A DNA stretch of 41,355 bases from a virus: positions 1 through 41,355 of IMG/VR virus record IMGVR_UViG_3300042894_000896. One strand, written 5' to 3'. The position numbers were made by a program, and so were the translations under genes. Below, one piece after another: positions 36,507 to 40,476 of this stretch. Every line of letters begins with the position of its first letter. Position 1 is the first letter of the stretch. The notes below the pieces were generated by a model. It searched no databases and was not told the DNA's origin. It worked only from the letters and a program-made list of their open reading frames with translations.

Positions 36507-36914
36507 TTGGAAGATAACACAACACCACTTAGAAGCAACCACCCTGTTCTATCAGCACTAAACGAGCAGGTAGAGAAACTAACAGCAGACAACAAGAACC
36601 TTTGGGAAGCATTGGGTATGATGTCTAGAAATGTTGAGACACTTGAAGATTGGTTGAAAGAAGCACTAACAATCTCAGGACAGATTGACTTTGACACAGC
36701 ACAAGAAATCGCAGAGATTTTTGGTATCTCACTAACAGAAGAAGTTGAAATGGAATTGACTTTCAAAGTGTCAGCAACCTTTACTGTTCCTGTTGGTTTT
36801 GACCACGACAAGTTAGCAGAAGATTTTGGCATCACCGAAAATCCTTTGGGAGTAGCAGAAGAATACCTAGAAAACTCTCATTGGGAATTAGATGATTGGC
36901 AAATCACATCTTAG
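36507..36914 (+). CDS. Coiled-coil protein (135 aa)
   Basis: Residues about 15-50 (SALNEQVEKLTADNKNLWEA) form a leucine-heptad coiled coil. The C-terminal half has a beta strand pair (ELTFKVSATFTVPVGF) and ends in acidic residues. The start is TTG at 36507 after AAGAAAGAAG; I see no in-frame ATG near it. Its stop codon TAG is the first part of a hairpin that leads into the first pseudoknot element. Function unknown. Confidence 0.7.
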   Translation: MEDNTTPLRSNHPVLSALNEQVEKLTADNKNLWEALGMMSRNVETLEDWLKEALTISGQIDFDTAQEIAEIFGISLTEEVEMELTFKVSATFTVPVGFDHDKLAEDFGITENPLGVAEEYLENSHWELDDWQITS

Positions 36915-36937
36915 GCAGTTCCCTTTCTTTCTGCCTA
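36912..36937 (+). ncRNA. Stop-codon hairpin with an anti-Shine-Dalgarno-like loop
   Basis: TAGGCAG (starting with the stop codon) pairs with CTGCCTA around the loop TTCCCTTTCTTT. The loop contains CCTTTCT, the same as the end of actinobacterial and Firmicutes 16S rRNA, and is complementary to the AGAAAGG ribosome sites of this arm. Confidence 0.6.
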
Positions 36938-36938
36938 A

Positions 36939-36965
36939 GCACCTGAGCAAGTGTTGAAACTGCTC
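36939..36965 (+). ncRNA. Pseudoknot element, copy a
   Basis: Stem 1 GCAC with GTGT (one G-U), loop CT, stem 2 GAGCA with TGCTC, single A, loop TGAAAC. It follows the stop-codon hairpin of the 135-residue gene. Confidence 0.75.
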
Positions 36966-36998
36966 TCGCACCAAGCGGTGAAGTTGGGTAAAGTTTTT

Positions 36999-37088
36999 AT
37001 GTTTGATAAAAGGAGAAAACATAATAGGCAGTGGCAAGTAAAGGGTATTGAGGTAATACTGCTGAATAATAACATACCTAACACCTGA
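36999..37088 (+). CDS. Possible micro-protein between pseudoknots (29 aa)
   Basis: MFDKRRKHNRQWQVKGIEVI then LLNNNIPNT. Basic start, hydrophobic middle. Its TGA lies inside pseudoknot copy b, as the other copies sit just after stops. The ribosome site is weak (GGGTAAAG), and AAAAGGAG lies inside the frame. Low confidence; may be non-coding. Confidence 0.3.
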   Translation: MFDKRRKHNRQWQVKGIEVILLNNNIPNT

Positions 37089-37107
37089 GCAAGTGTATAA
37101 ACTGCTC
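37081..37107 (+). ncRNA. Pseudoknot element, copy b
   Basis: Stem 1 ACAC with GTGT, loop CT, stem 2 GAGCA with TGCTC, single A, loop ATAAAC. Confidence 0.78.
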
Positions 37108-37178
37108 ACCAATATACTTGTGGGTACATATAGGAAACCCTCTGATGCTATAACAAAGGGCTAAGAAATTACTTTGTA

Positions 37179-37206
37179 GGGGTATAGGTCTTCGGATTTA
37201 TACCCC
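37179..37206 (+). terminator. Strong TTCG hairpin
   Basis: GGGGTATAGGTC pairs with GATTTATACCCC (two wobbles) around TTCG, giving 12 bp; GAAATTCTGCCCGCC follows. It ends the non-coding region with the pseudoknots. Confidence 0.75.
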
Positions 37207-37256
37207 GAAATTCTGCCCGCCAAAATCACAACTTGATAACACCCTTTACGATGTGC

Positions 37257-37285
37257 TTGACATTTCTCCTGAATAATGGGATAAT
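37257..37285 (+). promoter_or_regulatory. Canonical promoter
   Basis: TTGACA, 17 bp, GATAAT. There is no octamer here. Confidence 0.8.
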
Positions 37286-37315
37286 TGAGTATAACCTAAA
37301 GAAAGGAAAACCCCT

Positions 37316-37540
37316 ATGTTGTATGTTGCCCCTGACGGAAACTATGGTGAAGCAGAATACCTTGTTGTTGTAGATGACGAGAACTTTGATGAACACTTTG
37401 TTGGATACCTTGACCAATGTGCTGATTGGATAAGACCTAGTTATGCTAAATGGTTTGAAGATAATCAACACGACTTTGAGCAAGGTAGATTAGAGTGGGA
37501 GTGTCAAGTATGCGAAGTGTGGCTAAGTGATGTCAGTTAG
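37316..37540 (+). CDS. Acidic protein of unknown function (74 aa)
   Basis: MLYVAPDGNYGEAEYLVVVD then ENFDEHFVGYLDQCADWIRP and WECQVCEVWLSDVS. It is acidic and aromatic, with one CxxC-like pair near the end. AAAGAAAGGAAA precedes the ATG. The end overlaps the next gene. First gene in this arm with a canonical promoter. Confidence 0.7.
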   Translation: MLYVAPDGNYGEAEYLVVVDDENFDEHFVGYLDQCADWIRPSYAKWFEDNQHDFEQGRLEWECQVCEVWLSDVS

Positions 37541-37730
37541 TATAACTTGTAAAGAGTGTGAAACTAAGACACACAAAATCTATTGGGATGAGATGTCTGA
37601 AGAAGACATGGAGTTGTATGGAGTGTCCTATCACAAATGTAATTCTTGTTCCTTTGAGCCTTTGATTTGGAACATGGGTATTGGAGATGCAGTATGCGAA
37701 AATTGTGGTAAGTGGCAAGATGAAGACTAA
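37530..37730 (+). CDS. Double zinc-knuckle protein (66 aa)
   Basis: Cysteines at ITCKECETK, HKCNSCSFE and AVCENCGKWQ give three CxxC pairs, enough for a zinc ribbon plus an extra site. The start may be ATG at 37530 or the GTG just before it; I choose ATG. It overlaps the preceding gene by 11 nt. Function unknown. Confidence 0.72.
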   Translation: MSVSITCKECETKTHKIYWDEMSEEDMELYGVSYHKCNSCSFEPLIWNMGIGDAVCENCGKWQDED

Positions 37731-37731
37731 T

Positions 37732-37752
37732 GTCAGTGGTAGCAACTATAAT
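37732..37752 (+). promoter_or_regulatory. Octamer promoter
   Basis: GTCAGTGG, 7 bp, TATAAT. Confidence 0.75.
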
Positions 37753-37777
37753 AGTAATCTAATGAAAGAGAGAGTAA

Positions 37778-37975
37778 ATGCCTAAATACAGTTTCAATTT
37801 TTGGGAAGAACAAAAGTGGGGTATCACCTTTGAAGCAGATAACCTTGAACACGCTAAGAAGTTGTTAGCAGAAGCAGAAGAAGAGATGGGAATAGAAGAC
37901 CTACCTGAGATGGAACGCTTTTTCAAAAAGGGTCATGAGACTTGGGACATTGACACACTAATGGAAGTAGAATAA
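37778..37975 (+). CDS. Small protein of unknown function (65 aa)
   Basis: MPKYSFNFWEEQKWGITFEA then DNLEHAKKLLAEAEEEMGIE. A beta hairpin and a helix resemble small phage proteins that begin with a strand-helix unit around FEADNLEHAKKL. The ribosome site is GAAAGAGAGAG. It is coupled to the next gene by TAATG. The 78-residue protein at 40841 shares this strand-helix layout. Confidence 0.7.
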   Translation: MPKYSFNFWEEQKWGITFEADNLEHAKKLLAEAEEEMGIEDLPEMERFFKKGHETWDIDTLMEVE

Positions 37976-38157
37976 TGGAACTAGATAAAGCATACGAAAT
38001 AGTATTAGCAGACTTAGAAGAGAGAAACTCACACACAATAGGAAGACTATTGCGTTGGGACATGGAAGGAAGCCCTGATGACGAACTTATGTATCGTGCT
38101 TGGCTAGTTGCTAAGAACTTTATTGAACAGTATGAATGGGATAAGGCTAAGGCTTAG
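37975..38157 (+). CDS. Small helical protein (60 aa)
   Basis: MELDKAYEIVLADLEERNSH then TIGRLLRWDMEGSPDDELMY and KNFIEQYEWDKAKA. Helical and charged. Starts at TAATG. A TTCG hairpin and GGCGGGC follow its stop. Function unknown. Confidence 0.7.
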   Translation: MELDKAYEIVLADLEERNSHTIGRLLRWDMEGSPDDELMYRAWLVAKNFIEQYEWDKAKA

Positions 38158-38159
38158 TC

Positions 38160-38177
38160 CCTACCCTTCGGGGCGGG
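38160..38177 (+). terminator. TTCG hairpin at the operon end
   Basis: CCTACCC and GGGCGGG pair imperfectly around TTCG. Weak evidence for termination. Confidence 0.45.
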
Positions 38178-38186
38178 CAGCAAAAA

Positions 38187-38201
38187 TAACAGAATGATAA
38201 C
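38187..38201 (+). repeat. TAAC/GATAAC element
   Basis: TAACAGAATGATAAC after GGCGGGC, followed by two TTTACGAAA units. Confidence 0.6.
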
Positions 38202-38227
38202 GCTTTACGAAATGCTTTACGAAACCC

Positions 38228-38256
38228 TTGACTTATTCCCCATCTTGCCTTATACT
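38228..38256 (+). promoter_or_regulatory. Canonical promoter
   Basis: TTGACT, 17 bp, TATACT. Confidence 0.8.
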
Positions 38257-38309
38257 TGTATTATCAACAAAAGTTGAGAAACAAAAACTACAAGTAGAAA
38301 GAAGCAAAA

Positions 38310-38468
38310 ATGGAAACCACATTTTCCGTTCCAACTGTTGGCTCACAGTTCACAACTCAGCGAGCAGGTATCGTAGGTACAGTTCAGGAAGTAGTCAAGA
38401 ACTCTAACGGTTCGTACCGTATCAAGTTAGATGTCAATGGCGAAACACGCTGGACAACTGCCAAGTAG
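38310..38468 (+). CDS. Small beta protein (52 aa)
   Basis: METTFSVPTVGSQFTTQRAG then IVGTVQEVVKNSNGSYRIKL and NGETRWTTAK. Alternating strands with IVGTV and SYRIKL look like a small SH3- or OB-like barrel. GTAGAAAGAAG precedes the ATG. The stop TAG opens a hairpin (TAGTTC...GAACTA) that leads directly into pseudoknot copy c. Function unknown. Confidence 0.72.
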   Translation: METTFSVPTVGSQFTTQRAGIVGTVQEVVKNSNGSYRIKLDVNGETRWTTAK

Positions 38469-38483
38469 TTCATAACAGAACTA
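38466..38483 (+). ncRNA. Stop-codon hairpin before pseudoknot copy c
   Basis: TAGTTC, starting with the stop codon, pairs with GAACTA around ATAACA. Copies a and d have a comparable hairpin. Confidence 0.6.
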
Positions 38484-38485
38484 TA

Positions 38486-38512
38486 ACATCTGGGTAAATG
38501 TCTAAACTGCCC
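38486..38512 (+). ncRNA. Pseudoknot element, copy c
   Basis: Stem 1 ACAT with ATGT, loop CT, stem 2 GGGTA with TGCCC (one G-U), single A, loop CTAAAC. Both stems differ from copy b and stay paired. Confidence 0.8.
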
Positions 38513-38513
38513 A

Positions 38514-38542
38514 TTTACAAATCAACCCTTATCCTGTATAAT
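38514..38542 (+). promoter_or_regulatory. Canonical promoter
   Basis: TTTACA, 17 bp, TATAAT, starting 2 nt after pseudoknot copy c. Confidence 0.8.
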
Positions 38543-38585
38543 TATCTTATACACAAAACCCACAAATAGAAAGTAGTAAAACATT

Positions 38586-39023
38586 ATGGCTCGTTCCGTA
38601 TCAGTAAAAATCCCAACATCAGTAGTTATTGAGATGATTGAGAACAAGTTAGCAGAACTAACAAAAGCAGAAACAGATTATCCTAAGTTGCTTTTAGCAT
38701 ACAAGAAAGACATTGCTACATTCACAGCAGACCTACTTGACCTAATTGGCAAGAACAAAAAGTCTGTTGTTGATTACAGCGACTACGAATGGTCATCAAG
38801 CAACATTGCTATCAACAGCGATTGGCGTGGCTCTGTGTCTATTGCTATTGGCAAGGAGTTAGTTGGTAAGATTGGCAAGAAGCCAGAGAAGCCAGAAGAC
38901 CCTGACAACTATGGACACAAGAACAAGAAAACTGAGTTGGAGAAGACCCTAAAACTTCTCAAACTAACTGAGCAGGAAACAATCACATCAAGCACATACA
39001 ACTCTGTTCTTGACCTGCTATAA
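38586..39023 (+). CDS. Protein of unknown function (145 aa)
   Basis: MARSVSVKIPTSVVIEMIEN, then a helical Lys-rich region (NKLAELTKAETDYPKLLLAY), a central segment (SDYEWSSSNIAINSDWRGSV), a Pro/Glu/Lys linker and a C-terminal helix (LKLLKLTEQETITSSTYNSV). I do not recognise the family. The upstream site is GAAAGTAG, weaker than usual. Pseudoknot copy d follows the stop. Confidence 0.7.
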   Translation: MARSVSVKIPTSVVIEMIENKLAELTKAETDYPKLLLAYKKDIATFTADLLDLIGKNKKSVVDYSDYEWSSSNIAINSDWRGSVSIAIGKELVGKIGKKPEKPEDPDNYGHKNKKTELEKTLKLLKLTEQETITSSTYNSVLDLL

Positions 39024-39027
39024 ACCA

Positions 39028-39041
39028 TAGGCGTACGCCTA
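39028..39041 (+). ncRNA. Hairpin before pseudoknot copy d
   Basis: TAGGC and GCCTA pair around GTAC, 4 nt after the stop and 1 nt before the pseudoknot. It matches the outer part of the hairpin before copy a. Confidence 0.55.
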
Positions 39042-39042
39042 A

Positions 39043-39069
39043 ACACCTAAGCAAGTGTCTAAACTGCTT
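39043..39069 (+). ncRNA. Pseudoknot element, copy d
   Basis: Stem 1 ACAC with GTGT, loop CT, stem 2 AAGCA with TGCTT, single A, loop CTAAAC. The outer pair of stem 2 is A-T instead of G-C. Confidence 0.8.
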
Positions 39070-39077
39070 CCTGAATT

Positions 39078-39125
39078 GGGGTAGCGACTAGACAGGTATA
39101 AGGTGTAAACCAATCGCTAATCCCC
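39078..39125 (+). ncRNA. Possible antiterminator hairpin
   Basis: GGGGTAGCGA can pair with TCGCTA (plus CCCC after a 2-nt bulge). This uses the C-run that also forms the left arm of the terminator at 39119-39176, so the two folds exclude each other. Confidence 0.5.
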
Positions 39126-39176
39126 CTGTGAAGTCTGGATACCAATCCCGAAAGTAGCAGGGGGATTTATTTTTTG
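39119..39176 (+). terminator. Terminator with a structured loop
   Basis: AATCCCCCTG pairs perfectly with CAGGGGGATT around a 29-nt loop that has an inner GGAT/ATCC pair; TATTTTTT follows. Confidence 0.8.
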
Positions 39177-39191
39177 CCCGCCCAAAAATGG

Positions 39192-39206
39192 TAACAAAAT
39201 GATTAA
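39192..39206 (+). repeat. TAAC/GATAAC-like element
   Basis: TAACAAAATGATTAA after GCCCGCC; the last three bases deviate. Confidence 0.5.
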
Positions 39207-39232
39207 GAATGAAAAATTAGTTTACGAAACAC

Positions 39233-39261
39233 TTGACAAATCCCCTAAATCGTGAGACAAT
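39233..39261 (+). promoter_or_regulatory. Canonical promoter
   Basis: TTGACA, 17 bp, GACAAT. Confidence 0.75.
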
Positions 39262-39300
39262 TGAGTATCAAATAAATCCACTAACGAAAGGTGTGTCCCT

Positions 39301-40314
39301 ATGGCTCACGAATTAGAAATCAACGAAGCAACAGGTCAGGCAAGTTTCGCTTCACTAAGACAACCTGCTTGGCACAATCTTGGAACTGTGTTTCAGGAAG
39401 AAGTATCTACAACAGAAATGCTAGAATTAGCAAATCTACACAATTGGAATGTTCGTCTTGAAGATGTTGCTGTCCCTGCTGGTTTCACTAGCGACAGAAA
39501 CTACTCATTCGTTTCAAGAACAAATCCATTCAACGCAGAACAGACAGACATTCTTGGTGTCGTTGGTGAACGCTATGTTCCATTACAGAATGAAGACCTA
39601 TTTTCATTTGGCGATAACTTGCTAGATGGTGGTGGGCGTTGGGAAACTGCTGGTTCAATCAAGGGTGGTAGACAGGTTTTCGGTTCTATCGCATTGGAAA
39701 GAGAAACTGTCCTAGACCCTAATGGCGTTAGTGATGTTGTCAAGTCTTACCTATTGCTAAACACATCTCACGATGGCTCTATCGCAATTCAGGCTTCAAT
39801 CACTCCTGTTCGTGTTGTATGTGCTAACACTCTAAACCTTGCTCTATCTTCTCTAAAAGGTAAAAAGGGTTTGAAGCAATCATTCAAGATTAGACACACA
39901 CAAACAGCAGAAGGCAAAATCGCAGTTGCTCGTGAAGCGTTAGGTCTTGCTAATCACTACCTAGACGAGTTTGATTTGCTTGCTAAGGAAATGATTAGCA
40001 AAGAAATTACTCAGGCTAAGTTTGATGAGATTGTTCTCAAAGCGTATCCAATGCCAACTAAGGACAGCAAGGGTTCAATGAAAAAGTGGACAGATAAGAT
40101 TGACCTTATTCAATCTATCTATGTTGGCGATTACAACAACACTATCTCTGGAACTGCTTGGGGTGCTTTGAATGCTCTAACAGAACGCCTAGATTGGTAT
40201 CGCAACTCTCGTGGAACTAACAACGAAAGTATTTACGCTTCTGCTTCTGGCTTTGACCCTGTAATCAACGCTGAGAAAAACAGGCTGATGAACTTGGTCT
40301 TGGCTTCCGTATAG
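39301..40314 (+). CDS. DUF932 / phage-plasmid-like protein (337 aa)
   Basis: Matches the DUF932 family (also described as phage/plasmid-like TIGR03299) found in many phages and plasmids, function unknown. Visible family features are PAWHNLGTVF near the N-terminus, the central GERYVPLQNEDLFSFGDNLL, GRWETAGSIKGGRQVFGSI, the SITPVRVVCANTLNLAL motif and a C-terminal GTAWGALNALTERLDWYRNS. Length is typical. CGAAAGGTGTG precedes the ATG. It has a canonical promoter, and pseudoknot copy e starts 7 nt after its stop. The largest gene of the right arm in this window. Confidence 0.88.
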   Translation: MAHELEINEATGQASFASLRQPAWHNLGTVFQEEVSTTEMLELANLHNWNVRLEDVAVPAGFTSDRNYSFVSRTNPFNAEQTDILGVVGERYVPLQNEDLFSFGDNLLDGGGRWETAGSIKGGRQVFGSIALERETVLDPNGVSDVVKSYLLLNTSHDGSIAIQASITPVRVVCANTLNLALSSLKGKKGLKQSFKIRHTQTAEGKIAVAREALGLANHYLDEFDLLAKEMISKEITQAKFDEIVLKAYPMPTKDSKGSMKKWTDKIDLIQSIYVGDYNNTISGTAWGALNALTERLDWYRNSRGTNNESIYASASGFDPVINAEKNRLMNLVLASV

Positions 40315-40320
40315 CAAAAC

Positions 40321-40347
40321 AATCCTGAGCAAGATTTCAAACTGCTC
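40321..40347 (+). ncRNA. Pseudoknot element, copy e
   Basis: Stem 1 AATC with GATT, loop CT, stem 2 GAGCA with TGCTC, single A, loop TCAAAC. Stem 1 differs at several positions from copies b and d but remains paired. No hairpin precedes it. Confidence 0.78.
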
Positions 40348-40455
40348 ACCATTTCCTACTTGACAAAGTGGGAAATTTGGGCGGGCATTTTTCAACTAGT
40401 TAATCATTTATTTCGATTACGATAAGGTTACATTTCCCCTGAAACTATTGACTAT

Positions 40456-40476
40456 GTCAGTGGTGTTATGTATACT
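40456..40476 (+). promoter_or_regulatory. Octamer promoter, leaderless
   Basis: GTCAGTGG, 7 bp, TATACT, then 6 nt to the ATG at 40483. Confidence 0.8.

Follow-up and report, generated by a model that had tools for sequence, protein, structure and literature searches.

What is the small structured element that recurs five times between positions 36939 and 40347 of a viral genome, and what could it do for the messages that carry it? The window, that is, the whole stretch of DNA analysed (IMG/VR record IMGVR_UViG_3300042894_000896, 41,355 bases), was scanned on both strands for a 27-nucleotide (nt) frame. A reading of the sequence alone had proposed five copies of an H-type pseudoknot (hereafter the knot), and all five were recovered at the same positions, on the plus strand, with the proposed architecture: stem 1 (4 base pairs, bp), CU (loop 1), stem 2 (5 bp), 1 nt (loop 2), stem 1', NNAAAC (loop 3), and stem 2'. 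The copies, and the open reading frames (ORFs) that they follow, are:

36939..36965, plus strand: pseudoknot copy 1, GCAC CT GAGCA A GTGT TGAAAC TGCTC; the TAG of ORF 36507-36914 lies 24 nt before.
37081..37107, plus strand: pseudoknot copy 2, ACAC CT GAGCA A GTGT ATAAAC TGCTC; 115 nt past copy 1.
38486..38512, plus strand: pseudoknot copy 3, ACAT CT GGGTA A ATGT CTAAAC TGCCC; the TAG of ORF 38310-38468 lies 17 nt before.
39043..39069, plus strand: pseudoknot copy 4, ACAC CT AAGCA A GTGT CTAAAC TGCTT; the TAA of ORF 38586-39023 lies 19 nt before.
40321..40347, plus strand: pseudoknot copy 5, AATC CT GAGCA A GATT TCAAAC TGCTC; the TAG of a DUF932/TIGR03299 gene lies 6 nt before.

All nine pairs (four in stem 1 and five in stem 2) form in each copy, and no other site on either strand of the window reaches 7 of the 9 pairs. 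A set of 100 dinucleotide-preserving shuffles of the window gave no full match and a mean of 0.03 matches with 8 or more pairs. Copies 1, 3, 4, and 5 lie within about 25 nt of a stop codon, as had been claimed, and copy 2 has no gene directly upstream. The sequence-only reading had further claimed compensatory changes in both stems; among the five copies the variation is partly one-sided (GCAC/GTGT; a T-G pair in GGGTA/TGCCC), and it is the family-wide covariation described below that upholds the claim.

Extent and covariation of the family

The core of copies 1 and 2 has at least 120 matches in viral contigs. A version that occurs in 84 stretches from contigs of bacterial genomes mostly has stem 1 intact, and the stem-1 variant TGAC/GTCA alone accounts for 61 stretches. 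With all pairs demanded, 497 sites (416 distinct) were found in 4.24 Mb of fetched loci, site counts that do not measure prevalence because the loci were picked by pattern, and none in a mononucleotide shuffle; chance repeats are thus ruled out by the shuffles of both the window and the fetched loci. Judged from these matches, the five window copies are members of an RNA family that is very widespread and found mainly in phages and prophages, with hosts spanning Actinobacteria, Firmicutes, Proteobacteria, Cyanobacteria, and Patescibacteria. Full copies follow the class II ribonucleotide reductase gene in Roseobacter SIO1, Celeribacter P12053L, and Lentibacter ICBM2, stand between the minor head and scaffold genes in Lactobacillus prophage Lj771, and occur also in cyanophage S-RIM4 and in Mycobacterium phage Labelle, whose knot is located near record position 56441, 6 nt past gene 85. 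Matches with 8 of the 9 pairs in StB12, phiEcoM-GJ1, and DSS3phi2 are possible, not certain, members; a match in Bacillus phage Page failed the 27-nt rule. No near relative of the window itself was found in the phage collection with half of the window searched.

To avoid bias, covariation was scanned with one stem (or the loops) left unspecified and the rest fixed. With stem 2 and the loops fixed, stem 1 is fully paired at 113 of 136 sites (83%), compared with 8.5% when the arms are cross-paired; 41 pair combinations are seen among the sites, and at positions 1-3 each of the four Watson-Crick pairs is represented. Fixing stem 1 instead gave a fully paired stem 2 at 64 of 102 sites, in 18 combinations. 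When the stems were fixed and the loops left free, loop 1 was CT in 41 of 42 cases and the AAA of loop 3 was present in 41 of 42 at each position. Of the bases described as fixed in the window (CT, A, and AAAC), CT and AAA therefore hold throughout the family; the single junction base is free (T commonest, then A and C, with A in all window copies), and the final C of loop 3 is occasionally A. The strongest covarying columns are the predicted stem pairs, which score above all column shuffles in an alignment thinned to <80% identity, in a comparison that is not tree-aware. There is also constraint beyond pairing, on CU, AAAC, a C-G closing pair, and a GCA/TGC core, and the 9 nt after the knot (positions 28-36) are G-poor (G 3-12%). 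Hundreds of covarying relatives, sought and found beyond the window, strongly back the two interleaved stems of an H-type pseudoknot, selection at the RNA level, and a position in 3' untranslated regions (UTRs).

An independent witness of the transcribed strand comes from one Ignavibacteria genome with five knots, all in a single orientation and all within spacers of one array of clustered regularly interspaced short palindromic repeats (CRISPR; loci L192 and L205, G001:C1:1029054-1038750). The array has ~141 repeats, the five knot spacers are all different, and no other knot matching the searched core is present in that genome. The adjoining cas operon is of type III-A (Cas10/Csm1, Csm3, Csm4, Csm5, Cas1, Cas2, Card1-like), a CRISPR type that attacks transcripts. 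Since the array lies downstream of this minus-strand operon, and the repeat read that way ends in ATTGAGAC, the array direction can be deduced, and the CRISPR RNAs would likely be complementary to the RNA strand of the knot. A repeat or site acting at the DNA level is ruled out by the strand lock to the coding direction, by the covariation, and by these one-strand type III spacers.

No Rfam family matches the element. Rfam 15 gives no gathering match in the window, and at E<=10 the region 36850-40460 shows only a chance suhB match elsewhere than at the copies, in keeping with the earlier statement that no family could be assigned. The mismatch with preQ1-I suspected then is also confirmed: Rfam reports no such match, and the preQ1-I riboswitch is a 5' leader of queuosine genes, whereas the knot follows the stop codons of unrelated genes. 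The luteovirus BWYV recoding pseudoknot is similar in outline, likewise with a 2-nt loop 1, a single junction nt, and an A-rich 6-nt loop 3 across a short stem in 27-28 nt; the knot differs from it in its stems of 4 and 5 bp, in lacking a slippery site or readthrough frame, and in its place after the stops of unrelated genes. RNAs of the ToxI type are also small H-type pseudoknots in mobile DNA, but are tandem repeats beside a toxin gene, whereas the window knots are single dispersed copies. The exonuclease-resistant xrRNAs share the job proposed below, that of a mechanically robust knot halting an exonuclease; they differ from the knot in fold, and the enzyme that they block is the 5'-to-3' exonuclease Xrn1 of eukaryotes. 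Bacterial 3' UTRs seldom contain conserved structured RNAs, and we know of no general-purpose one in phages.

The pseudoknot of T4/T2 gene 32 (PMC3014915) is also a short coaxial H-type fold in a phage messenger RNA (mRNA), but it serves a single gene as an operator in the 5' UTR, where gp32 binds it, and the knot is a dispersed 3' element. The STAXI motif (PMC2864571) is another conserved pseudoknot of bacteria and phages, sometimes near antirestriction genes; unlike the knot it forms tandem repeats with UUCG loops, and Rfam shows no STAXI match on the window or the scanned loci. The L17 downstream element resembles the knot in being structured and located in the 3' UTR of a bacterial mRNA, but it is linked to a single ribosomal protein gene; gene regulation by such RNAs was termed highly unusual (PMC2864571). 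The VIPR vrRNA tails (PMC13142463) were rejected for their different context. A description of the family was not found in Rfam 15 or the open-access literature searched, subscription papers such as the 224-motif survey being outside that scope. As far as searched, then, the fold type is known, and the family and its gene-independent placement after stop codons are new.

Placement relative to stop codons and downstream elements

A same-strand ORF ends upstream of the knot at 317 of the 416 distinct sites, compared with 43 in the mirror control, and only 6 sites fall inside a same-strand ORF of at least 100 amino acids (aa). Among the 317, the distance from stop codon to knot is 0-4 nt at a single site, 5 nt at 49, 6 nt at 40, and 5-9 nt at 146, that is, the spacing has a sharp lower limit of 5 nt; many sites lie 17-80 nt from the stop. 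The ribosomal helicase site is located at about +11. In frameshifting work, a spacing of 5-9 nt places a structure at the mRNA entrance of the ribosome (PMC5009743). On these two grounds, a knot placed 5 nt past the stop codon sits at the closest position that a terminating ribosome would leave unmelted.

The placement does not depend on the gene. At least 126 unrelated protein clusters precede the 416 sites, including ribonucleotide reductase, helicases, portal and minor head proteins, ArdA, ArdC, RIIB, SSB, and DUF932. Since the knot follows more than 100 unrelated genes in phages of many phyla, two roles suggested from the sequence, an operator bound by a phage protein and the release of small RNAs, become less likely. 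Convergent gene ends make up 11% of knot-bearing ends, compared with 23% of other ends with a gap of at least 50 nt, and the 200 nt downstream contain more promoter-like sites than do shuffles (80 vs 21); the knot therefore marks boundaries between co-directional genes or units. A start led by a Shine-Dalgarno sequence is found within 60 nt downstream at 109 sites.

In some cases the knot directly adjoins a processing site. A transfer RNA (tRNA) gene follows within 200 nt in 31 cases, in 30 of which it starts 3-15 nt past the knot; RNase P would create a 3' end there. Four copies stand directly 5' of hammerhead ribozymes (two in L129, one each in L168 and L164), with the predicted cut 6-9 nt 3' of the knot. 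Two consecutive genes of L129 both carry a knot and a type III hammerhead at their ends (Rfam 50.5 and 41.2 bits), and the hammerheads of L168 and L164 are weaker Rfam matches with an intact core. In three bacterial loci (L138, L145, and L177) the knot lies directly 5' of the Rfam DUF2800 RNA, with a gap of 1-2 nt, and this RNA may in its own right be the mark of a processing site. As an obligate partner it was rejected, only one of three viral loci found from the DUF2800 side having a knot. By eye, the knot of L161 also lies 1-2 nt before a DUF2800 RNA.

We also noticed an ORF for a ~21-aa peptide (MKRFxxPRxAHCxxGCxxxS) in bacterial chromosomes of several phyla, whose UGA stop is part of the knot's own CTGA (loci L125, L131, L135, L137, L142, L173, L180, L182, L184, L187, L189, L190, and L206). 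Three of these peptides have no NCBIfam match.

A candidate 3' clamp and its rivals

From this placement we infer, with about half of our belief, that the knot serves individual messages as a general-purpose 3' boundary clamp and shields the ends of processed mRNAs. The knot would fold just outside the ribosome terminating on the stop codon, so that translation would leave it unmelted, and the short G-poor single strand past it would be the place of an RNA cut or end. Where a tRNA follows, RNase P would make the cut; a hammerhead would cut by itself, and where neither is present putative endonucleases would act. Loop-groove triples formed by the invariant C-U and A-A-A would probably stiffen the knot, which would then stop 3'-to-5' exoribonucleases from entering the reading frame. 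Blocking ribonucleases, first suggested from the sequence, is our best functional guess; position and spacing appear to fit such a barrier, and protection of bacterial mRNA ends by 3' structures is established (PMC3997798).

Viral hammerheads suggest that other structures may take the same place. At 41 of 43 type III-like viral hammerheads (loci L468-L587) there is a hairpin just upstream instead of a knot, although the test is permissive (26 of 43 positive in a control stretch), so that the peaks in spacing, at 5-6 nt both from the stop and from the cut, are better evidence than the counts. These hairpins occupy the place of the knot in phage messages and are simple and GC-rich, without its conserved sequence; we view the two as interchangeable, the hairpin being a functional replacement. 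The fuller proposal of a universal, gene-independent phage 3' clamp, found across many phyla at a minimum distance from the ribosome, interchangeable with a hairpin, and yielding monocistronic exonuclease-resistant mRNAs from long transcripts, is tentative, and we give it somewhat less than even chances. If true, phages would protect mRNA ends and partition operons in one shared way, and the 27 nt would serve as a tag for functional message ends in uncultured viruses and as a portable mRNA-stabilising part.

Several observations weigh against the clamp, the permissiveness of the hairpin test among them. Only ~35 of the 416 sites have a tRNA or hammerhead to make an end, and no processing site is evident near the window copies. 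From the hammerhead side a knot is present at only 1 of 104 viral hammerheads, and with only four cases in all the hammerhead was rejected as a general partner. Depletion at convergent gene ends means that the knot is not a general transcript-end element. The small-peptide subgroup breaks the spacing rule, its stop lying inside the knot, and the message of copy 4 may already be protected by a terminator-like stem downstream (see below). The hairpins found ahead of copies 1, 3, and 4 are a further caveat for the window.

The main rival, though we consider it unlikely, is a translation boundary, in which the knot, standing where mRNA enters the terminating ribosome, halts drifting or reinitiating post-termination ribosomes, or tunes release, so that co-directional neighbours are expressed independently. 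The very tight coupling to stop codons with its 5-nt limit, the preference for co-directional junctions over convergent ends (which counts against the clamp as well), and the 109 Shine-Dalgarno-led starts all favour it. It accounts poorly for knots where nothing translatable directly follows (tRNA, hammerhead, DUF2800 RNA), for the many sites 17-80 nt past the stop, and for the knot-internal stop codons of the small-peptide group.

Type III toxin-antitoxin systems have antitoxic RNA pseudoknots, which are tandem repeats beside the toxin gene. With this precedent, and given the sequence constraint beyond pairing, the knot could dock one specific protein, either a host factor or ribonuclease that is conserved or else an RNA-binding toxin or defence protein for which it acts as a decoy. 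We find this improbable, however: knots are single and follow unrelated genes, the genes before the window copies match no toxin family (ToxN/CptN/TenpN-like), the partner would have to be conserved across the five host phyla named above, and triple interactions predict the loop conservation equally.

Still less probable is a transcription signal, whether an intrinsic terminator built on a pseudoknot or an antiterminator that would act on RNA polymerase. A U-run (at least 7 T in 8) directly follows 30 of 413 knots (~7%) compared with 4 in the control stretch, and the downstream enrichment of promoter-like sites points the same way. Against this, tRNAs, ribozymes, and ribosome-binding sites lie 3-40 nt downstream, too close for a promoter to fit in between, and polymerase must therefore pass through the knot; most sites, all five window copies included, have no U-run; and convergent ends are depleted, on which grounds a general terminator was rejected. 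Stimulation of frameshifting or stop-codon readthrough is very improbable and was also rejected: in loop sizes (2 nt in loop 1, 1 nt in loop 2), in its A-rich loop 3, and in the spacing of 5-9 nt the knot is like recoding pseudoknots (PMC5009743), but slippery heptamers occur at 9 sites compared with 3-10 at control offsets, no clear excess, and no open frame runs past the stop (median 16 codons).

Genes and signals around the window copies

The genes directly before copies 1, 3, 4, and 5 are:

36507..36914, plus strand: gene before copy 1, 135 aa, without family match.
38310..38468, plus strand: small gene before copy 3, 52 aa, without family match.
38586..39023, plus strand: gene before copy 4, 145 aa, without family match; its relatives' cluster precedes a knot at 29 sites.
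39301..40314, plus strand: gene before copy 5, phrog_1221 / TIGR03299, with DUF932 in the relative L005; its relatives' cluster precedes a knot at 50 sites.

Hairpins lie upstream of copies 1, 3, and 4: the one between ORF 36507-36914 and copy 1 has 9 bp and contains the stop codon in its 5' strand, and TAGGCGTACGCCTA lies between ORF 38586-39023 and copy 4. A strong hairpin (40348-40375) is immediately 3' of copy 5. A terminator-like stem ending in TTTATTTTTT is found ~50-100 nt 3' of copy 4. The stretch 39118-39175 holds a terminator-like stem, CCCCCTGTGAAG...AGTAGCAGGGGG, the internal loop of which looks like a loop-E motif and partly recurs in L040, L070, and L081.

Promoter-like sequences follow the copies:

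37257..37285, plus strand: TTGACA-17-GATAAT, after copies 1 and 2; consensus match only.
38514-38542, plus strand: TTTACA-17-TATAAT, starting 2 nt after copy 3.
39233..39261, plus strand: TTGACA-17-GACAAT, after copy 4; consensus match only.
40448..40476, plus strand: TTGACT-17-TATACT, after copy 5; consensus match only.

The internal TGA of copy 2 would close a 29-codon ORF, the frame of which is broken in L116; the stretch from copy 1 to copy 2 therefore looks non-coding, and a coding mini-ORF there was rejected. Its part at 36990-37075, conserved in L012, L067, and L070 and diverged in L116, is probably non-coding and possibly a small RNA bounded by two knots. Between 28094 and 40839, ~20 copies of ATGTCAGTGG, with a TATAAT-like box after them, stand at the starts of the small genes, probably a phage-specific class of promoter. 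Finally, a GCCCGCC/GGCGGGC motif occurs in both orientations between transcription units, often with ATAACNAAATGATAAC after it:

29034, 29385, 29927, 31092, 31849, 32980, 37214, 38172, 39177, and 40378 (approximate), both orientations: GCCCGCC/GGCGGGC motif sites.

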